DNA of 20,629 bases from IMG/VR virus record IMGVR_UViG_3300027777_000188, positions 1 through 20,629 of that record; one strand, written 5' to 3'. A model generated the notes under the pieces. It saw only the letters and a program-made list of their open reading frames with translations. It was not told where the DNA came from and did not search any database. How positions within the stretch are numbered: position 1 is the first letter of the stretch; every line of letters starts with the position of its first letter. The stretch comes from a virus. Below, one piece after another: positions 12,298 through 20,238 of this stretch. Position numbers and translations under genes: made by a program.

Positions 12298-13170
12298 TTA
12301 ATCTTCAGCTAACTTAGAGAAGTAAGCCAAATCTTCATCTGTCTCATCTTCTGAGATATCTGCTGTTACTGCCTTCTTAGGTGCAGCCTTCAGAGTTTCC
12401 ACAGTAGTCTTAGGTACATCAGTAGCACCCAACACTTTATCTAGACGAGCCTTCAAGTCATCATATGATTTGAATTCTTTGTCAGCAGTCAACGCTGTAA
12501 GCGAATGCTGTGATTTCCAAATCTTTTCTAATTCATCATCATCTTCCAACAATGCAGTAGATGACATGAACTCTGACTTATCATAGTTCTGATAACCAGC
12601 AACTTTAGTAATCTTCAATTTGAAGTTAGCACCTTTCCACATATCAAATGGATTGATTGCTACTTCATCTTCAAAAGATGGATTCATTGCACCAGTAACC
12701 TTTTCGAAAATCTTGGCACCAAACTTGAACAATTTAACTTGTCCTTCGTTCTCTGGATGCTTAGGATCACTTACGATATACACGTTAGCAATGTATGAGA
12801 GTTTACGCTTTTGTTTGCGTACAATCTCTTTGTTGGCTTCGATGCCAGAGTTCCACAATTTGTTGTTGTGTTCACATACTGGACATTGTTGACCTTTAGT
12901 AGTCAAACAATTATCGATTAACCAACCACCTGGACCCTGAAATCCATGACCAAAGATTTTAGCCCAAGGAAGACCATCATCACCATCAACTGCAGCTGCA
13001 GGTAGAAAACGAATAACGGCAAGGCCATTACCAGCTTTATCTACTTCTGGTTTCCAGTAATTGTCTTTGTCGGATTTACCACCTTCTGATGAGCTTGAGA
13101 GTTGCTCGATGGCTTTAGTGAGTTTGTCCAGATTGCCTGAACTCTTTTTTAGTTTTGAAAAATCTGTCAT
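12298..13170 (-). CDS. gp32: Single-stranded DNA-binding protein gp32
   Basis: A 290-residue protein (T4 gp32 is 301 aa) with the three-part gp32 layout. The N-terminal segment MTDFSKLKKSSGNLDKLTKA is basic, for cooperative self-interaction. The core contains YWKPEVDKAGNGLAVIRFLP and a zinc site: H75 in IFGHGF, C88, C96 and C99 in CPVC, matching the T4 His-Cys-Cys-Cys set. The C-terminal tail is acidic (DISEDETDEDLAYF), used to recruit partners such as gp59. It coats single-stranded DNA in replication and recombination. AAAGG lies nine bases before the ATG. A sigma70-like promoter overlapping a triple repeat lies just upstream, and gp59 and gp33 precede it, the same 33-59-32 cluster as in T4. 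Confidence 0.97.
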   Translation of the reverse strand: MTDFSKLKKSSGNLDKLTKAIEQLSSSSEGGKSDKDNYWKPEVDKAGNGLAVIRFLPAAAVDGDDGLPWAKIFGHGFQGPGGWLIDNCLTTKGQQCPVCEHNNKLWNSGIEANKEIVRKQKRKLSYIANVYIVSDPKHPENEGQVKLFKFGAKIFEKVTGAMNPSFEDEVAINPFDMWKGANFKLKITKVAGYQNYDKSEFMSSTALLEDDDELEKIWKSQHSLTALTADKEFKSYDDLKARLDKVLGATDVPKTTVETLKAAPKKAVTADISEDETDEDLAYFSKLAED

Positions 13171-13247: not shown

Positions 13248-13868
13248 TTAGGCGTGTTCTTTCAAACACTCCTTCAGTATTGTGGTAAACTTTGGTTTAT
13301 CATAATCAATAAATGGTGTATACTTTATAAACTTTAATCTCATGGAAGGCCATACGATTGTGTCAGCAATCTTTTTGTCCCACATAGGAAAGAAATTCAT
13401 AATGTCATTCAAAATAACCAAGGTTTCTACCGCAACACTACTATACATTACTTCTTTCAACAACGATGGATATTGTCCATCTTCAACCATCAACATTTGA
13501 TTTGGTGATTGTGCATCATTAAGTAGGTGTATTATATCTTGTTCAAAGCGATATGTCAAGCTCTGGTTTCTTTTTTGCCACTTCTTATAGGTTTCTTCAC
13601 CATCTAGGTTATTAATGTCACCAATCCAGTTGACATCTTTTTCTAGGAGGTTTGACACATAGAAGTTCTTTAATTCTTCCAGTCGGTACTTACGGGATAA
13701 TTTATAGAAAGAATATTTGTCCTTTCTGTTGGCAAAATTATCGGCAGTAACATTGGACTTTCCGTGGTAACGAATATAATCGTAAGAATCAGTAGTAAAA
13801 TGAAGTTTAAGCGCATTGAACATGGCAAAGGCCGAGAAGCCAGAGCCTTCCTCAAAGTTGAAAATCAT
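13248..13868 (-). CDS. gp59: DNA helicase loader gp59
   Basis: A 206-residue protein (T4 gp59 is 217 aa) with recognisable family segments: an N-terminal GFSAFAMFNALKLHFTTDSY, then DYIRYHGKSNVTADNFANRK, and RKYRLEELKNFYVSNLLEK. gp59 binds fork DNA and gp32 and loads the gp41 helicase. The ATG overlaps the gp33 stop (ATATGA), so translation is coupled. The stop is followed by CCTAAATAATCC. It lies directly upstream of gp32, its physical partner. I see no unusual features. Confidence 0.93.
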   Translation of the reverse strand: MIFNFEEGSGFSAFAMFNALKLHFTTDSYDYIRYHGKSNVTADNFANRKDKYSFYKLSRKYRLEELKNFYVSNLLEKDVNWIGDINNLDGEETYKKWQKRNQSLTYRFEQDIIHLLNDAQSPNQMLMVEDGQYPSLLKEVMYSSVAVETLVILNDIMNFFPMWDKKIADTIVWPSMRLKFIKYTPFIDYDKPKFTTILKECLKEHA

Positions 13869-14086
13869 ATGGGTAGTTTAGAACTCTTTTTCAATAAGTT
13901 GAGTTCTTGTGCTTCTTCACGCAGTTTAGCCTTTAAGGCAGATGAAACTAATGTAGATGCTACATCAATCTCCATACCTGTTTGTTCACAGTAACCAACA
14001 ATAGCATCCATGATTGAAAGATTTTCTTCTTCAGCCAGTTCCGCTATCTTGGTACTAAATTCACTTATTTCATTTTTTGTCGGCAT
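13865..14086 (-). CDS. gp33: Late transcription co-activator gp33
   Basis: I place the start at 14086 (MPTKNEISEFSTKIAELAEE), giving 73 residues, rather than at the earlier in-frame ATG at 14131. The later start sits one base after the preceding stop, has AAGAAG about six bases upstream, and avoids overlap with the hydrolase gene. The protein is small, acidic and helical, with SIMDAIVGYCEQTGMEIDVA and LVSSALKAKLREEAQELNLL, as in gp33 of T4-like phages. gp33 bridges the RNA polymerase beta flap to the sliding clamp during late transcription. Synteny 33-59-32 supports the call strongly. It is shorter than T4 gp33 (112 aa). Confidence 0.85.
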   Translation of the reverse strand: MPTKNEISEFSTKIAELAEEENLSIMDAIVGYCEQTGMEIDVASTLVSSALKAKLREEAQELNLLKKSSKLPI

Positions 14087-14087
14087 T

Positions 14088-14567
14088 TTAACTTCTTGTA
14101 TAGAATAGATGGTTTCCAATTTTAGCAACATACTTCAGTTTCCATGCCGGATTTACCGAGGTGTTATGATAGTACATTGAATTTGTTTTGTGTATTATAT
14201 CATGTAATACACCTTCTGTCAAGGCCTTTCTGGCAACAATCATACACTCTTCCCATGCATATTTGTTTCTGACAGGACCAACACGTTCACCAACCCAACT
14301 GAATTGATACGTTTGATTTATTTTTTGATATACAACTTCACAGACTGATTTTGGAAATTGTACCGAGTTGGCACGGTTCATAGTTACCTGTGCTACCGCC
14401 AATTTACCTTCAAAAGATTCACTTGCGGCTTCATAATATAGATTCTTAGCCATGCATAGAATTTGTTGACCTAGTTCACCTGATACTTCTTGTACCTCTG
14501 ATACTGGTTGTTGATGACCAACTACAGGTATTAAAGCAAATAATGTAATGAGAATGAATTTCTTCAT
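14088..14567 (-). CDS. Exported SleB-type cell wall hydrolase (putative endolysin)
   Basis: A 159-residue protein with an N-terminal signal sequence or signal anchor (MKKFILITLFALIPVVG, residues 1-17) and a Hydrolase_2/SleB domain. Family marks are LYYEAASESFEGKLAVAQ with the probable catalytic Glu46, VTMNR (61-65), QFSWVGERVG and the C-terminal SMYYHNTSVNPAW plus HLFYTRS. SleB-type enzymes cleave peptidoglycan glycan strands. The Sec signal means that it could reach the periplasm without a holin, as in signal-arrest-release endolysins, or act as a secreted muralytic protein. It lies in the gp33-gp59-gp32 operon, not a classical lysis cassette. AAGGAG six bases before the ATG is strong, and a C(UUCG)G hairpin stands just upstream. 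Confidence 0.85.
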   Translation of the reverse strand: MKKFILITLFALIPVVGHQQPVSEVQEVSGELGQQILCMAKNLYYEAASESFEGKLAVAQVTMNRANSVQFPKSVCEVVYQKINQTYQFSWVGERVGPVRNKYAWEECMIVARKALTEGVLHDIIHKTNSMYYHNTSVNPAWKLKYVAKIGNHLFYTRS

Positions 14568-14966: not shown

Positions 14967-15503
14967 TTAGAAACCTACTGTGTATGCTACAGCAACAACT
15001 TTCTGATTGCTGTCACCTTGAACACGGTCATACTTCACTGCAATAGCATCGTTCTTATTCAAAGCATAAGACACAGCATAACGCATTGTATGTGTTTGGT
15101 CGCCATTTGTACTTTGAAATGCACTACGGAAACGGTAACCAACCTTAGCAGTCAAACCAGCACCGATTGGTGCAGTAAAACCTGGTTCTACTGAGTAGTA
15201 GTTGAAGTCGGCTGTATTACTATATTTTTGACCAATAGCAGTACGAGCATACAATCCAACTGGACCTGATACTGTTGCGCCAGCTTCTAAGCGAGTGCTC
15301 AAAGCATTTGTGCCTTCAGTTTGTGCATTTGCGAAAGATACATCACCAGCAAAATTGCCGAAATCTTTCTTAACACCCAAAACATATTGTTGTTGTGCAG
15401 CTGCACCTGCGTTGTTGATACGTTGACCTTCAACAGTAACGGTATCACCAGCATATGCTGATACACTTAATGCAACCAAAGTTGCGATTGCTAATTTCTT
15501 CAT
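14967..15503 (-). CDS. Outer-membrane beta-barrel protein with signal peptide
   Basis: A 178-residue protein. Residues 1-18 (MKKLAIATLVALSVSAYA) are a textbook signal peptide with an AYA cleavage site, leaving a mature chain of about 160 residues. The rest alternates polar and hydrophobic residues in strands typical of an 8-stranded porin-like barrel (LSTRLEAGATVSGPVGLYAR; GLTAKVGYRFRSAF; AVSYALNKNDAIAVKYD) and ends with VAVAYTVGF, a terminal Phe of the kind recognised by the BAM complex. Such host-type barrel proteins are rare in T4-like phages. Known phage examples (lambda Lom, the PA-2 Lc porin) modify the host surface. The gene follows the tmRNA, with AAGGAG six bases before its ATG. Superinfection exclusion or surface change is inference. 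Confidence 0.8.
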   Translation of the reverse strand: MKKLAIATLVALSVSAYAGDTVTVEGQRINNAGAAAQQQYVLGVKKDFGNFAGDVSFANAQTEGTNALSTRLEAGATVSGPVGLYARTAIGQKYSNTADFNYYSVEPGFTAPIGAGLTAKVGYRFRSAFQSTNGDQTHTMRYAVSYALNKNDAIAVKYDRVQGDSNQKVVAVAYTVGF

Positions 15504-15530: not shown

Positions 15531-15562
15531 GTGGTTTGATTCTGTTACGAGGTACAAACCAC
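15531..15562 (-). terminator. Terminator-like hairpin after the tmRNA
   Basis: Arms 15555-15562 and 15531-15538 pair perfectly over 8 bp (GTGGTTTG with CAAACCAC on the minus strand) around a 16-base loop. They are followed by ATTTTATTT. The long AT-leaning stem plus T-rich tail suits a terminator for the tmRNA or a barrier and read-through point before the barrel gene. It could instead be part of the 3' domain of the coding piece. Confidence 0.55.
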
Positions 15563-15579
15563 AAAACCCTAGTCAGCGT

Positions 15580-15612
15580 TTAGGCTGCCAATGCGAACTG
15601 TGAGTCGTTTGC
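15580..15612 (-). other. tmRNA proteolysis-tag reading frame
   Basis: GCA AAC GAC TCA CAG TTC GCA TTG GCA GCC TAA encodes ANDSQFALAA and a stop. The resume codon GCA and the ending ALAA match tags recognised by ClpXP/ClpAP with SspB (E. coli tag ANDENYALAA). It follows a short H-type pseudoknot by about 23 bases. Confidence 0.9.
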
Positions 15613-15696
15613 GTTTACTTTGATTTAGTTTTTACACCTACTCTGGTGAGTTGTCCACTTCTATACTTGTTACCCTGTCGAATCTAGGTCATCCCC

Positions 15697-15724
15697 ATCA
15701 GAAGCATACACTCACATATGCTTT
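15697..15724 (-). other. Intervening spacer of the permuted tmRNA, with hairpin
   Basis: Between the CCA end (15725) and the first base of the coding piece (15696) lie 28 bases. Arms 15717-15723 and 15702-15708 (AAGCATA / TATGCTT) form a perfect 7-bp stem with an 8-base loop. In known permuted tmRNAs this segment is removed by RNase P and 3' processing, giving two RNA pieces held by base pairing. Confidence 0.75.
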
Positions 15725-15873
15725 TGGTGGAGATGGAGGGATTTGCACCCTCTTCCAGAATACTTTTCTAGTTGCTTCATACAACAATTCAGTCACCCAT
15801 TTTATTGTAGTACCATATTAACCATCCTATGGTCATCAGGCAAACTATTAATATGATGGGTTCGAAGTAGTCC

Positions 15874-15902
15874 ATTATACTATATTTATTTACGTTTGGC
15901 GA
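15874..15902 (-). promoter_or_regulatory. Sigma70-like promoter of the tmRNA (copy A)
   Basis: TCGCCA (15902-15897), a 17-base spacer, then a perfect -10 TATAAT (15879-15874). The predicted start lies near 15866, ahead of the acceptor piece. The region is nearly identical to copy B at 17072-17100. Confidence 0.7.
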
Positions 15903-15908
15903 TAGCTA

Positions 15909-17000
15909 TCAAGCCATTAAAGAGGTACTTGGTTTTGTCTTACTGTAAAAATTACTTAAACTTATTGCACCACTAGTTGGAATACCAGTAACACTTGTAT
16001 CGACAATACCACCATTTTTATAATATTTACCCAATCTTACTAATCTAGATGCATCCATGTAAACTGTTTTTGTAAAAGTTCCGTTGCCTTGGCCGCCTTG
16101 TGCAGCTACAAACGTATTATTACCATAACCTACTGCTTGCCAATATGCATAACCATTATTTGGATTAGATATCCAATTTATTCCATCGGAACTTAATGCA
16201 GTTGAAGCAATTCCTCCACCATTAGAGGCAACTGCACAAAAGTAACCGTTACCATATGTCATACTCATATAAGCTTGTGTAGTCGGCATCTCACCAGCAG
16301 TCCAAGTAACACCATTATCTGTTGAATATAAAAATTCTGAACCTGTAACACCTGAAGTATTAGGACCCGAAGAAACAAATGTACCATTACCATAAGCAAT
16401 TGAAGACCAAAATGATGTTTTAGGTAATGTTCTTTGTGTCCAAGTAACACCATCAGTTGATGTTGCTGCTATACTTGAATTATAAGCGACAGCAACAAAA
16501 TATCCATTACCAAATGCGAGGCATGTTGTCCATTGAGCGTTAATTGGCCATGAAGTTGATGACCAAGTTGCACCATTATCTGTTGATATATTCAATTTGG
16601 TTGGTCCCATCGCCACAAATCTTCCGTTTCCGTAGGCTATTGACCTCCAGCTATCATTATCAACCAAGGTCCTTTGTGTCCAAGTTATACCATCAGGTGA
16701 TGTCGCAGCAATATTCAAACCCAATACAACTGCACAAAAATAACCATTACCAAATGTTATTGCTCTCCATTGTCGTGCAGATGGCATTGCTCTGAGTGTC
16801 CATGTTCGGCCATAATCAGTTGAAGTTATTACATCAGTTGTGGGCGCTCCAGGATTTGTTCCGTAAGCAATAGCTACAAATGTACCGTTGCCATAAGCAA
16901 CACCTGTGTAACTTTGACCTGGACATGTAGCAGATGACCAGTTACCAAATTCTGTTGTGATATTCGATAATTTTATACTACCTGATACTGGTAAAGTCAT
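15909..17000 (-). CDS. Asp-box beta-propeller tail protein (putative fibre/adhesin)
   Basis: A 363-residue protein with a seven-fold repeat of about 40 residues. (Y/F)GN(G/N)xF occurs near residues 36, 83, 123, 163, 203, 249 and 292, and six BNR/Asp-box motifs (STDYGRTW, SPDGITW, STDNGATW, STDGVTW, STDNGVTW, SSDGINW) stand between. This predicts a sialidase-like beta-propeller, probably seven-bladed; I see no sialidase catalytic set, so binding rather than cleavage is likely. The first residues MTLPVSGSIKLSNI match the start of the glycine-rich protein at 18694-19587, and a variant, PTSGAISLSNFYS, recurs at 342-353. I infer a shared attachment module for tail fibres. AAGGA lies upstream, and promoter copy B drives it. 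Confidence 0.75.
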   Translation of the reverse strand: MTLPVSGSIKLSNITTEFGNWSSATCPGQSYTGVAYGNGTFVAIAYGTNPGAPTTDVITSTDYGRTWTLRAMPSARQWRAITFGNGYFCAVVLGLNIAATSPDGITWTQRTLVDNDSWRSIAYGNGRFVAMGPTKLNISTDNGATWSSTSWPINAQWTTCLAFGNGYFVAVAYNSSIAATSTDGVTWTQRTLPKTSFWSSIAYGNGTFVSSGPNTSGVTGSEFLYSTDNGVTWTAGEMPTTQAYMSMTYGNGYFCAVASNGGGIASTALSSDGINWISNPNNGYAYWQAVGYGNNTFVAAQGGQGNGTFTKTVYMDASRLVRLGKYYKNGGIVDTSVTGIPTSGAISLSNFYSKTKPSTSLMA

Positions 17001-17071
17001 TTATTTTTCCTTTTTAATTCATATAATGGTTACAGCACATACAAGAGTTAAAATAGGTTCTATGTAGTCCA

Positions 17072-17100
17072 TTATACTATATTTATTTTAGTTTGGCAAT
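17072..17100 (-). promoter_or_regulatory. Sigma70-like promoter of the propeller gene (copy B)
   Basis: TTGCCA (17100-17095), a 17-base spacer, then TATAAT (17077-17072), about 70 bases before the ATG at 17000. It is nearly identical to copy A from the -35 box to just past the -10 box (shared AAATAAATATAGTATAATGG and GACTAC). Confidence 0.75.
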
Positions 17101-17103
17101 AGA

Positions 17104-17661
17104 TTATACAAAATTTATTGCAAGAGATATTCTTTCTTCATCACTTTGACTTGGTTCAACACCGTGTCGTAGAAAGGCAGGAAAGGCAATCAATAGATTT
17201 TTTTGTGGAGTAATAAACCAATCAGGATAATTATATTCCGATTGTTCATCAAAATCATTAAATTCATTTAAAAGATCCGGTCTTTCAAAAATTATATTTC
17301 CACAATTCTCTGGAGTCTTAAAATAAAAAACCACAGAAAAGGTTGACCTAGAATGCCTATGTGCAATATTATAGTTATCACGTTTATTTATGTTAAACCA
17401 ATAACTTCCAATTTCTGCAGGTCGGAGTATTCCATATTTTGTATACAGTTCTTGTACTCTTGGCTTGATTATATTCAAAAGAGGAGATAAAAAATCATTA
17501 GAAGATTCTACATAACTATCACTTTGCCAACCACCTATGTTACTTACATTTCTACCTTCAGACAATCGTTGTAAATTTTTAATATTATCTAAGTTGTTAT
17601 CTGAATTATAATCAAGTACTTCAAAAAATATTGGAGTAAAAAACGGACGCATTTCGTTCAT
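17104..17661 (-). CDS. 2-oxoglutarate/Fe(II)-dependent oxygenase family protein
   Basis: I place the start at 17661 (MNEMRPFFTPIFFEVLDY), giving 185 residues. TAGGAAATAGTTCT just upstream supplies a Shine-Dalgarno, and the upstream gene stops four bases before; the in-frame ATG at 17685 would overlap that gene. The double-stranded beta-helix motifs are visible: NIAHRHSRSTFSVVFYF (H101 and H103, possible metal ligands), then ITPQKNLLIAFPAFLRHGVE with H166, and R177 in DEERISLAINF for 2-oxoglutarate. Phage members of this group (2OG-FeII_Oxy_5) are common in aquatic T4-like genomes, with unknown targets, possibly structural proteins, DNA or host metabolites. It pairs with the 241-aa gene upstream. 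Confidence 0.82.
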   Translation of the reverse strand: MNEMRPFFTPIFFEVLDYNSDNNLDNIKNLQRLSEGRNVSNIGGWQSDSYVESSNDFLSPLLNIIKPRVQELYTKYGILRPAEIGSYWFNINKRDNYNIAHRHSRSTFSVVFYFKTPENCGNIIFERPDLLNEFNDFDEQSEYNYPDWFITPQKNLLIAFPAFLRHGVEPSQSDEERISLAINFV

Positions 17662-17665
17662 AGAA

Positions 17666-18391
17666 CTATTTCCTACCAAAACCAAACGGACACTTTTTAG
17701 GTTTTCTGAATGATAGAGTTTTCATAAACGATTCTGCCATCACATACAAATTTTTCAAAGGTACATTTTTTATGGCCAACTTTAACTTGAAACAAGTTTT
17801 TTCAGCAGACTTCAATTCTTCCGTCATTTGAACACGTTCTAACTCTACTTTAGAATCATCCTTTGTTCTAAATTTAACATAAAAAAGAACATCACCTCTG
17901 GTCATTTTAACTTTCTTGGTATCATCTTTTACTTCAAAACTAAAATCTATTGACCTAATCCATTTTGAAATGTTGTATGTTCCTGGTATCAACATAGTAT
18001 TTGATATACTATCATTTAGTTCCATAAAAGGATGAATAGATTCAATTGACATATCATCATTTGAATAAAATAGATAAGCCGGAAATGTTGACATAACATA
18101 TGGATTTGTAGGCTCAACTTGGTCAATTCTATTAATTATAAATTGACTATACTCTTGTGGTACTCCAATAATATCAAGTGTGCCTTTTTTCCTATTAACT
18201 GTTATCTCACAATCGAAAGGTGCTTTAATAACAAATGTATTTTTAGTGTATTCTTGAAAGGCAGGGCATTTTAAATATTGTGTGCCTTTTCTTGTTTCTT
18301 GTAGGTGTTTAAATAAACTCTCGGGTTCAAAGAATACAATTTGTAATTCAGGTGAACCACAATCTGGTATTGTCCAATAAACTTTCTGCAT
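17666..18391 (-). CDS. Protein of unknown function paired with the 2OG oxygenase
   Basis: A 241-residue protein that I cannot assign. It starts MQKVYWTIPDCGSPELQIVF and has beta-rich middle segments (TFVIKAPFDCEITVNRKKGT; AYLFYSNDDMSIESIHPFME). It ends in a helical, basic C-terminus (MAESFMKTLSFRKPKKCPFG). No signal peptide or membrane segment. It is the first gene after an exact-consensus sigma70 promoter, with AAGGA seven bases before the ATG, and ends four bases before the oxygenase start. A functional pair is likely, with this protein as a possible substrate or partner, or both acting on tail fibre proteins. This is inference from gene pairing. Confidence 0.75.
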   Translation of the reverse strand: MQKVYWTIPDCGSPELQIVFFEPESLFKHLQETRKGTQYLKCPAFQEYTKNTFVIKAPFDCEITVNRKKGTLDIIGVPQEYSQFIINRIDQVEPTNPYVMSTFPAYLFYSNDDMSIESIHPFMELNDSISNTMLIPGTYNISKWIRSIDFSFEVKDDTKKVKMTRGDVLFYVKFRTKDDSKVELERVQMTEELKSAEKTCFKLKLAIKNVPLKNLYVMAESFMKTLSFRKPKKCPFGFGRK

Positions 18392-18414
18392 AATTATTCC
18401 TTTTCAATTCATAT

Positions 18415-18443
18415 ATTATATACCAGAAATTAAACCTTGTCAA
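18415..18443 (-). promoter_or_regulatory. Exact-consensus sigma70 promoter
   Basis: TTGACA (18443-18438), a 17-base spacer, then TATAAT (18420-18415). Both boxes are perfect and the spacing is optimal. It overlaps the stop of the 84-aa gene and would drive the 241-aa protein and the 2OG oxygenase as early genes under host polymerase. Confidence 0.85.
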
Positions 18444-18694
18444 TCCCAAGTTGCTTCATTTTCACCAAATGTACCATCTTCTTCTCTTATAGAATTTACT
18501 ATACTTTCAGTAACTTCATCAGAAGTAAAAGTTAAATTTAACCACTCTTCGGTTATTTCAATAATCTCTTTATCATTAGTCTCAATAAACTTAGCAAGAT
18601 TTTTAATTTTTGTTGGATGTGTGAAGGATTGTGTATTACCATTGGAATCAACATATGTGATTTCCCATTTATCTTCTTTTAATGTATATTTCAT
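18440..18694 (-). CDS. Small acidic protein downstream of the glycine-rich fibre
   Basis: Starting at the ATG 18694 gives 84 residues (MKYTLKEDKWEITYVDSNGN...), acidic, ending NEATWD. The start overlaps the last base of the preceding stop (TAATG), so translation is coupled. An in-frame start at 18787 would run back through the glycine-rich gene and is unlikely. I do not recognise the protein. The first part looks like a small beta-hairpin (KWEITYVDSNGNTQSF) followed by helices rich in Glu. Small proteins placed right after tail fibres can be fibre chaperones, but nothing in the sequence proves that here. Confidence 0.7.
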   Translation of the reverse strand: MKYTLKEDKWEITYVDSNGNTQSFTHPTKIKNLAKFIETNDKEIIEITEEWLNLTFTSDEVTESIVNSIREEDGTFGENEATWD

Positions 18695-19587
18695 TAATAA
18701 CCCCACCAAATAAAGACGGCACCGGTTGCGCCAGCAGCTGCAATCCAAGTACCATTTTGTTGACCACCTTGGTCTGATTGAGAACATCCTCCGCCACCGC
18801 CTCCTGCACCATATCCAGTTCCAGTTTGTCCTGGTCCTCCGCCTCGACCTTGGCCGCCTAGACCAACACTACCAACACTAACAATGCTTCCTATTGAATA
18901 TCCAACTGTGGTATTAATATTAATACCACTAGAACCATTACCACCATAAGTTGCTGCAGGATATGATGTAGAATAATCGTTATATATTGCTTGGGTTCCA
19001 GTTGATATTGAACCAGTTCCACCTCGACTTCCGTCTGGAGATTGTATACCGCCATTACCTCCATTCGCATAAGCATAAGTTGTGCCATTTACAGTAAAAC
19101 TAGTTGCGCCACCGGTGCCGCCACTTGAACCTACATTACCTTGGTTTCCGTATATACCATCACGACCCAAACCGGCAGAACCACCGCCGCCAATAGAGAA
19201 ACTAACAGATTGTCCTGGTGTTACGGGTATGCTAAGTGTATATGCGTTAGCACCTGAACCACCACCGCCTCCACCAACAACGTATCCTGATAATGTACGA
19301 TATGAGCCACCGCCGCCACCTGCACCGCCAGCTACAACAAGAACACTAATTGTTTTGCCTGAAGTTCTTGGTAATGTATATGATGATCCGTCGGTAATGA
19401 CACCACTATTTCCTGGAATTGTATATGCTTTGTCGTGGCCAGTGTTCATATCAATCTGACCACTTGATACACCAAAAATATTTCTAACAACCGAATCATT
19501 GAGTGAAGCTGCCGCAGTACTGGATGATCCATAGATTTCTTGATTAATATCTGCGAATGAAATTGCACCTGATACAGGTAAAGTCAT
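18694..19587 (-). CDS. Glycine-rich tail fibre or adhesin protein
   Basis: A 297-residue protein with two parts. Residues 1-65 are a head beginning MTLPVSGAISFADINQEIYG, which matches the start of the propeller protein and similar N-termini of phage fibre proteins. The rest is a glycine-rich domain with runs such as GGAGGGGGSYRTLSG, YVVGGGGGGSGANAY and GAGGGGGGCSQSDQGG, ending GAVFIWWGY. Glycine-rich sandwiches of polyglycine helices occur in T-even adhesins (gp38), and similar ends (a short VxIxW tail after GAxGA) are common in phage receptor-binding proteins. It is probably a distal host-recognition subunit. GGGA upstream of the ATG serves as the ribosome binding site, and CTAAATA about 40 bases upstream is a possible late promoter. 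Confidence 0.75.
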   Translation of the reverse strand: MTLPVSGAISFADINQEIYGSSSTAAASLNDSVVRNIFGVSSGQIDMNTGHDKAYTIPGNSGVITDGSSYTLPRTSGKTISVLVVAGGAGGGGGSYRTLSGYVVGGGGGGSGANAYTLSIPVTPGQSVSFSIGGGGSAGLGRDGIYGNQGNVGSSGGTGGATSFTVNGTTYAYANGGNGGIQSPDGSRGGTGSISTGTQAIYNDYSTSYPAATYGGNGSSGININTTVGYSIGSIVSVGSVGLGGQGRGGGPGQTGTGYGAGGGGGGCSQSDQGGQQNGTWIAAAGATGAVFIWWGY

Positions 19588-20238
19588 TTAATTTTCCCTA
19601 TAAAACTTTATGTACTCCAATAATGTATTTAGGTGGTCTGCCGTTTTCTCTATAAAAATCAGCGGTTCTTCATTATCAACTGCCATAATAATGACAATTT
19701 GGTCAATTCCTGTACCAATCAGTTCTTCGTACATGCAGGCATACGCCACACATTGTGCAAAGTAATTGTCAATATCTTCCCTTTTCTTGATTCTTTTTGA
19801 TGTTTTGAAGTCAATTACAGACAAAACACCATCAAATTCACCAATACAGTCTACACGACCTGCCATTCCAAGGTTGACAGACCAAAGTGTACATTCCTGG
19901 TAATGAATGTTATTGATTCGATTTAATAATGGTTTAAGTGGTAGAAACATTGCCTTTGCATCAGGCATAATGTCACCAAGTGCTTCATTATTAAGATATC
20001 GTTCACAGAGCGTATGAACATTTGTACCACGGGACGATGCTTTCCGTGATATCTTATTTGCCTCTTCTTCACCAACACGTTTACGCCATTTCATAATGGC
20101 TTCTTTGCCTTTTGCACCTATGACCGTGGTGACTGACGGCAACTTCGTACCATCGGGTAGAGTATAGTATCTCTTACCATCAGGAAATGTGGTTGCTTTT
20201 AGGTCTTGTAAATCTTTAGGTGGGCAATAATTGAACAT
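19588..20238 (-). CDS. PD-(D/E)XK exonuclease (Cas4/MGME1-like)
   Basis: A 216-residue nuclease of the RecB/Cas4-like PD-(D/E)XK family common in aquatic T4-like phages. Motifs in order: SRGTNVHTLCERYL (69-82, with H75), E115 in YQECTLW, D130 in MAGRVDCIGEF, D143-x-K145 in VIDFKTSKR, and the QxxxY motif Q162-Y166 in AQCVAYACMYEE. The N-terminus has a LPSVTTVIG segment usual for mitochondrial exonuclease MGME1 relatives. It probably digests single-stranded or end-exposed DNA in recombination or host-DNA breakdown. I see no four-cysteine Fe-S cluster set. No strong Shine-Dalgarno is seen; CTAAATAAA lies about 25 bases upstream. The stop immediately precedes the ATG of the glycine-rich gene. Confidence 0.88.
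   Translation of the reverse strand: MFNYCPPKDLQDLKATTFPDGKRYYTLPDGTKLPSVTTVIGAKGKEAIMKWRKRVGEEEANKISRKASSRGTNVHTLCERYLNNEALGDIMPDAKAMFLPLKPLLNRINNIHYQECTLWSVNLGMAGRVDCIGEFDGVLSVIDFKTSKRIKKREDIDNYFAQCVAYACMYEELIGTGIDQIVIIMAVDNEEPLIFIEKTADHLNTLLEYIKFYREN

Follow-up and report, generated by a model that had tools for sequence, protein, structure and literature searches.

tmRNAs are processed by tRNA enzymes, charged by AlaRS through the G3-U70 pair and bound by SmpB at the elbow; they serve in ribosome rescue and in the degradation of the tagged products (PMC3968760). Two-piece forms account for 53 of the 133 unique phage tmRNA structures reported in PMC9004378. The Methylophilales phage Melnitz (MZ577097; PMC9004378), a T4-like phage (Kyanoviridae) that infects an OM43 host, carries a permuted, two-piece ssrA of alpha type between a PD-(D/E)XK nuclease gene and gp33-gp59-gp32. 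The Pelagibacter phages Mosig and HTVC008M have a permuted form with an alpha-type body at the same locus; the HTVC008M gene (L269, NC_020484.1 145103-145414; 83.8 bits) is unannotated in its record and lies between the exonuclease and a putative late-promoter factor. These precedents do not support the view, put forward in a first-pass annotation of the DNA studied here, that two-piece tmRNAs are unusual among T4-like viruses. Two-piece tmRNAs in aquatic T4-like phages are already known; what is new at the present locus is a betaproteobacterial-type body together with a coupled elbow change.

The window (the whole stretch of DNA that was analysed, a virus record of 20,629 bases from an uncultured T4-like phage) contains a complete circularly permuted tmRNA gene on the minus strand, as revealed by cmscan and by the sequence. 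The Rfam covariance-model scan proposed in the first-pass annotation gave a strong match to beta_tmRNA (RF01850) at 15865-15525 (-), with 125.4 bits and an E-value of 2.9e-38, and a second one to tmRNA_permuted (RF04321) at 15786-15580 (-), with 115.9 bits and an E-value of 2e-22 (cut-off 47 bits). The permuted order, with a CCA-ended piece followed by a spacer and then the 5' piece, was confirmed by the sequence and the RF04321 match. All of the marks originally named (the CCA piece, the 28-nt spacer, GGGGATG, G3-U70 and the tag ANDSQFALAA) were recovered and are now placed on the minus strand, while the candidate processing points 15725 and 15696 coincide in the sequence exactly with the CCA end and the GGGG start. 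The elements of the gene are as follows:

15874-15902, minus strand: sigma70-like promoter candidate, TCGCCA-N17-TATAAT, 10/12 matches, upstream of the tmRNA
15725-15787, minus strand: tmRNA acceptor piece (TLD 3' half) including the P2 strand, its mature 5' end probably near 15787 (RF04321/RF01850 alignment, script coordinates, sequence)
15752-15736, minus strand: T-arm, loop UGCAAAU, with G55 at 15746 (script, sequence)
15735-15729, minus strand: acceptor 3' strand CATCTCC (script, sequence)
15728 and 15727-15725, minus strand: discriminator A73 and CCA, respectively (script, sequence)
15697-15724, minus strand: 28-nt spacer between the tmRNA pieces, expected to be removed by processing (script)
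15531-15696, minus strand: tmRNA coding piece, comprising the acceptor 5' strand, D-loop, mRNA-like domain and 3' hairpin, its mature 3' end predicted at 15531 (alignment, consensus structure, sequence)
15696-15690, minus strand: acceptor 5' strand GGGGATG (sequence)
15685 and 15684, minus strand: A18 and G19 of the D-loop UAG (alignment, sequence)
15580-15612, minus strand: tag reading frame GCAAACGACTCACAGTTCGCATTGGCAGCCTAA, encoding ANDSQFALAA and a stop (script; codon table over relatives)
15562-15531, minus strand: 3' hairpin of the coding piece (consensus structure)

All seven pairs of the acceptor stem are formed, the third being G-U (G3-U70), and A73 and CCA are encoded, which makes the stem alanine-type.

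By its body, the window tmRNA belongs to the beta class. It scored 125.4 bits with the beta, 56.0 bits with the alpha and 32.9 bits with the cyano model; the cut-offs are 84 bits for beta_tmRNA (RF01850) and 50 bits for alpha_tmRNA (RF01849), so that the gene passes the alpha cut-off yet stays far under its beta score, and alpha is not its best-scoring class. The Melnitz tmRNA scored 107 bits with the alpha and 25 bits with the beta model, the alpha score exceeded the beta score in HTVC008M and Mosig, and the tmRNA of AG-345-P14, a single-cell marine virus, reached 120 bits with the cyano model. Together with the window, these examples indicate that all three classes occur in T4-like phages.

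The elbow departs from the class of the body. The beta consensus has the T-loop UUCGAUU and the D-loop UGG (U55, G18), whereas the window has UGCAAAU and UAG, that is, G55 and A18, a difference overlooked in the first-pass annotation. The G55/A18 kind of elbow is that of the alphaproteobacterial two-piece tmRNA (RF01849), with the consensus T-loop GGCgGUA and D-loop uAG, although its T-loop is not that of the window and its body model scores only 56 bits here versus 125 bits for beta. Melnitz likewise has A18/G55, but differs from the window in its alpha-type body, 142-nt spacer, tag ANDNYVPVDYALAA, T-loop GGCAGUA and an adjacent glutamine riboswitch. In Mosig, a UGC T-loop is combined with A18, as in the window. 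The betaproteobacterial two-piece tmRNA (RF01850; plasmid-borne in Cupriavidus) resembles the window gene in body architecture, G3-U70, spacer length class (32 nt) and an ANDxxFALAA tag, and the Cupriavidus form differs in U55/G18, the acceptor GGGCCTG and the tag ANDEKFALAA; the 3' terminator-like hairpin of RF01850 is absent from the window. Only one record with a beta-type permuted tmRNA was found among 50,697, that of the Synechococcus phage BUCT-ZZ01 (94.5 bits), which has a different gene neighbourhood and a cyanobacterium as its reported host. This gene (L002, ON615601.1 116891-117291) is unannotated, and its beta type is odd for a cyanobacterial host.

ARAGORN, another check suggested at the outset, reported no gene in the window. 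In a set of 77 distinct permuted genes, 6 of 22 G55 types escaped it versus 1 of 55 U55 types, which makes the unusual elbow a plausible cause. The proposal that the tmRNA lineage would point to the host became doubtful, given that Melnitz combines an alpha-type tmRNA with an OM43 host and that the window elbow is alpha-like; with this precedent and a mosaic elbow, host assignment from the tmRNA lineage was ruled out.

Comparison with Pfam and PHROGs disclosed homologues of gp25, gp53, tail tube, baseplate, gp32, gp59 and gp33, in agreement with the first-pass view of a T4-like contig, here one related to Kyanoviridae; the model scores likewise bear out its reading of a permuted, two-piece tmRNA gene of betaproteobacterial architecture. 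Isolate relatives are distant, the best identity of gp32 being ~56% over its length, to cyanophages. The slot of the tmRNA is delimited by conserved markers:

19588-20238, minus strand: PD-(D/E)XK exonuclease (phrog_298), the conserved upstream marker
13865-14131, minus strand: gp33-like late-transcription coactivator, the first conserved downstream marker
13248-13868, minus strand: gp59, after gp33
12298-13170, minus strand: gp32, after gp59

Downstream of the window tmRNA lie a small outer-membrane-like ORF, an endolysin and gp33-gp59-gp32. Of the viral contigs with a related gp32, nearly all that span the region keep the gene order exonuclease (phrog_298), tmRNA, gp33, gp59, gp32, and the tmRNAs of Melnitz and Mosig occupy the same slot. 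The clear exception is L146/L147, near-copies of each other that lack the tmRNA; as this relative is near-complete (172 kb), the gene is not essential to the phage group. The presence of alpha-type and beta-type tmRNAs at one phage locus suggests that one type replaced the other in situ, rather than that the two were inserted independently.

To evaluate selection on the gene, we compared related sequences. The acceptor stem was fully paired in 33 of 33 distinct sequences, despite the 28-284 nt that separate its strands, and compensatory changes were present at pair 4 (G-C/C-G), pair 5 (A-U/C-G/G-C) and pair 6 (U-A/A-U), while pair 3 was always G-U (invariant G3-U70). RNAalifold on 29 sequences predicted 49 pairs, of which 30 had changed at both partners. 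In 29 ten-residue tags, synonymous changes appeared at Asn2, Leu8, Ala9 and Ala10, and the final AA and the stop were kept. Stem and tag are thus both under selection. A TTGACA/TATAAT promoter with 11-12 of 12 matches, ending 6-13 nt before the mature 5' end, was found in 18 of 32 related loci, compared with 0.06% of shuffled sequences; the window's own candidate is weaker and further upstream. The conserved locus, the acceptor covariation across the spacer and the codon-level conservation of the tag show that the tmRNA gene is not a relic. The spacer itself measures 56-284 nt in related phage loci versus 28 nt in the window, with lengths of up to 284 nt in the tmRNAs at L177:2425-2967, L187:2629-3089 and L126:3211-3556. 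A second T-arm-like stretch, GTGGTTCGATTCCAC, perhaps the trace of a duplication, is located in the L126 spacer.

A pattern-level search of 84,980 species genomes gave no cellular match to ANDSQFALAA; its single match was a phage-type contig reading ANDTQFALAA. This contig (L189), binned in a species-representative MAG (G050) of a small-genome order, carries tRNAs, a Clp-like protease frame and a beta-like tmRNA, with a signal-peptide-like ORF of the kind seen at 14967-15503 in the window nearby. It was rejected as a bacterial gene and is probably mis-binned; other genomes of the order had no comparable match except one at 70 bits. Many related phages have exactly the Cupriavidus tag, ANDEKFALAA. 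Permuted Cupriavidus ssrA copies (L271, L272, NZ_CP016951.1) reside on plasmids of 0.58-1.67 Mb, and both of those whose tag was read have ANDEKFALAA. Our bacterial ssrA comparison covered these plasmid-borne copies only (ANDEKFALAA, U55/G18), and no phage-versus-host tmRNA tree is claimed from it. A search of 28 phage records (the window and 27 others, with none in Melnitz) detected no SmpB, while 10 of 14 control genomes matched; the host's SmpB is therefore presumably borrowed.

With a probability of roughly 0.85, the window encodes a functional phage-borne circularly permuted (two-piece) tmRNA with a betaproteobacterial-type body that would work as follows. Host sigma70 polymerase most likely transcribes the gene, and cleavage directly after CCA (15725) and ahead of GGGG (15697/15696) would yield an acceptor RNA and a coding RNA, presumably held together by P2 and the acceptor stem. 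The G3-U70 pair would allow charging by host AlaRS. With the help of SmpB and EF-Tu from the host, the charged molecule would then reach ribosomes stuck on broken mRNA and append (A)ANDSQFALAA to the stalled products for destruction by host proteases. The likely benefit to the phage is the recycling of ribosomes stranded as mRNAs are degraded in infection; amino acids might also be fed back, as inferred for Melnitz (PMC9004378).

Two other readings of the gene were weighed against ribosome rescue. The gene could be a passenger, a host ssrA acquired through recombination and having no phage function; this would agree with the frequent use of tmRNA genes as integration sites (PMC11915505) and with the prophage gene exchange suggested for Melnitz (PMC9004378). 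Such an origin is strongly disfavoured, and in our estimate very improbable, by the recurrence of the same exonuclease/gp33 slot in dozens of contigs, the compensatory acceptor and synonymous tag changes, the near-perfect promoters in relatives and a tag that was not found in the cellular genomes searched. The phage RNA could instead compete with host tmRNA, rewriting the tag or blocking host trans-translation like the tag-less tmRNA of mycobacteriophage DS6A, a form that inhibited E. coli tmRNA (PMC11915505). The difference between ANDSQFALAA and the Cupriavidus tag ANDEKFALAA would fit this idea, but many relatives have exactly ANDEKFALAA. The tag frame, moreover, is uninterrupted and maintained by purifying selection, and its LAA ending is that of a normal degradation tag; we consider competition unlikely.

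We then asked how positions 18 and 55 vary among permuted tmRNAs. The 77 distinct permuted genes comprised 55 U55/G18 and 22 G55/A18 elbows, with no mixed type. An unbiased 2x2 pattern scan of 2.9 million viral contigs returned 102 U55/G18 and 39 G55/A18 contigs, and neither G55/G18 nor U55/A18 occurred. On a core-gene tree (gp32+gp59, 41 contigs), the elbow type switches at least 4-5 times; this tree provides four independent contrast pairs (p 0.125), too few for significance. A tree of the tmRNA body with the elbow left out gave 12 changes and seven supported independent pairs, all concordant (p 0.016), although this tree is short and affected by recombination. As far as the literature search reached, the lockstep switching of 18 and 55 inside phage lineages and the combination of a beta body with an alpha-like elbow are new.

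The D-loop/T-loop contact in tmRNA matters for SmpB binding according to Barends 2002, as cited in PMC3968760. In the window, this contact has changed to the A-G form of alphaproteobacterial tmRNAs and has probably been compensated within the RNA. Because a G at position 55 cannot be converted to pseudouridine, it is uncertain whether the RNA works with host SmpB, and the window elbow is possibly tuned to elbow-reading host factors. Switching may reflect matching to host SmpB, escape from an elbow-reading factor, or exchange with internal compensation.

Within the close-relative pairs L132/L135 and L138/L133, near-identity is broken only in the D-loop, T-arm and acceptor, and the 86-nt spacer that lies between these parts is almost unchanged. 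Among them, these four contigs pair each tRNA-like type with each tag type, a four-gamete sign that recombination separates the two modules. The pattern, along with T-stem and spacer SNPs that travel with the elbow type, would be in keeping with elbow flips that are simply exchanges of whole tmRNA segments between phages, with no selection for host fit or tertiary contact, an explanation to which we give somewhat less than even odds. Exchange of a single segment would produce linkage but not a complete lack of mixed types among 141 contigs, nor does it account for a spacer that has diverged far less than the T-arm, acceptor and D-loop on its two sides. A more specific scenario, which we put forward tentatively and hold to be doubtful as a whole, is that of an exchangeable tRNA-like module with two never-mixed elbow states, swapped independently of the tag so as to fit the present host's SmpB, or some other factor that reads the elbow, or else to evade one that recognises the canonical elbow; the window would then represent a beta body with an alpha-like elbow.

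The gene type itself has already been described in T4-like phages; the elbow coupling and the module exchange are the part worth pursuing. With the tmRNA at a fixed locus and close relatives differing almost only in the tRNA-like module, this clade of T4-like phage contigs offers a set of natural mutants, and the lockstep of 18 and 55, which held in all 141 pattern-matched contigs, cleanly supports the D-loop/T-loop contact of tmRNA. The coupled change is a useful natural test of whether phages tune tmRNA to their hosts, and it poses a testable question: whether elbow type decides which SmpB is usable and hence which hosts a phage can serve.

Several further features were observed. Pelagibacter phage Mosig has an Rfam manA RNA element (L270:3165-3372, -; 64 bits). 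Between the exonuclease and the tmRNA, the window (15909-19587, -) carries cargo that includes a BNR-repeat protein, a 2OG-Fe(II) oxygenase and a glycine-rich protein; this cargo is not common to the closest relative, L112, and the tmRNA-adjacent stretch looks like a variable region. On the other side, a small ORF at 14967-15503 (-) with a signal-peptide-like start and a resemblance to outer-membrane barrels had no match in Pfam, PHROGs or NCBIfam, and it adjoins the tmRNA in several relatives. Finally, a 28-codon ORF at 15789-15875 (-), MDYFEPIILIVCLMTIGWLIWYYNKMGD, terminates immediately ahead of the tmRNA 5' end and probably encodes a single membrane span; this stretch, translated by eye, is conserved in L112, L116, L117 and L119.
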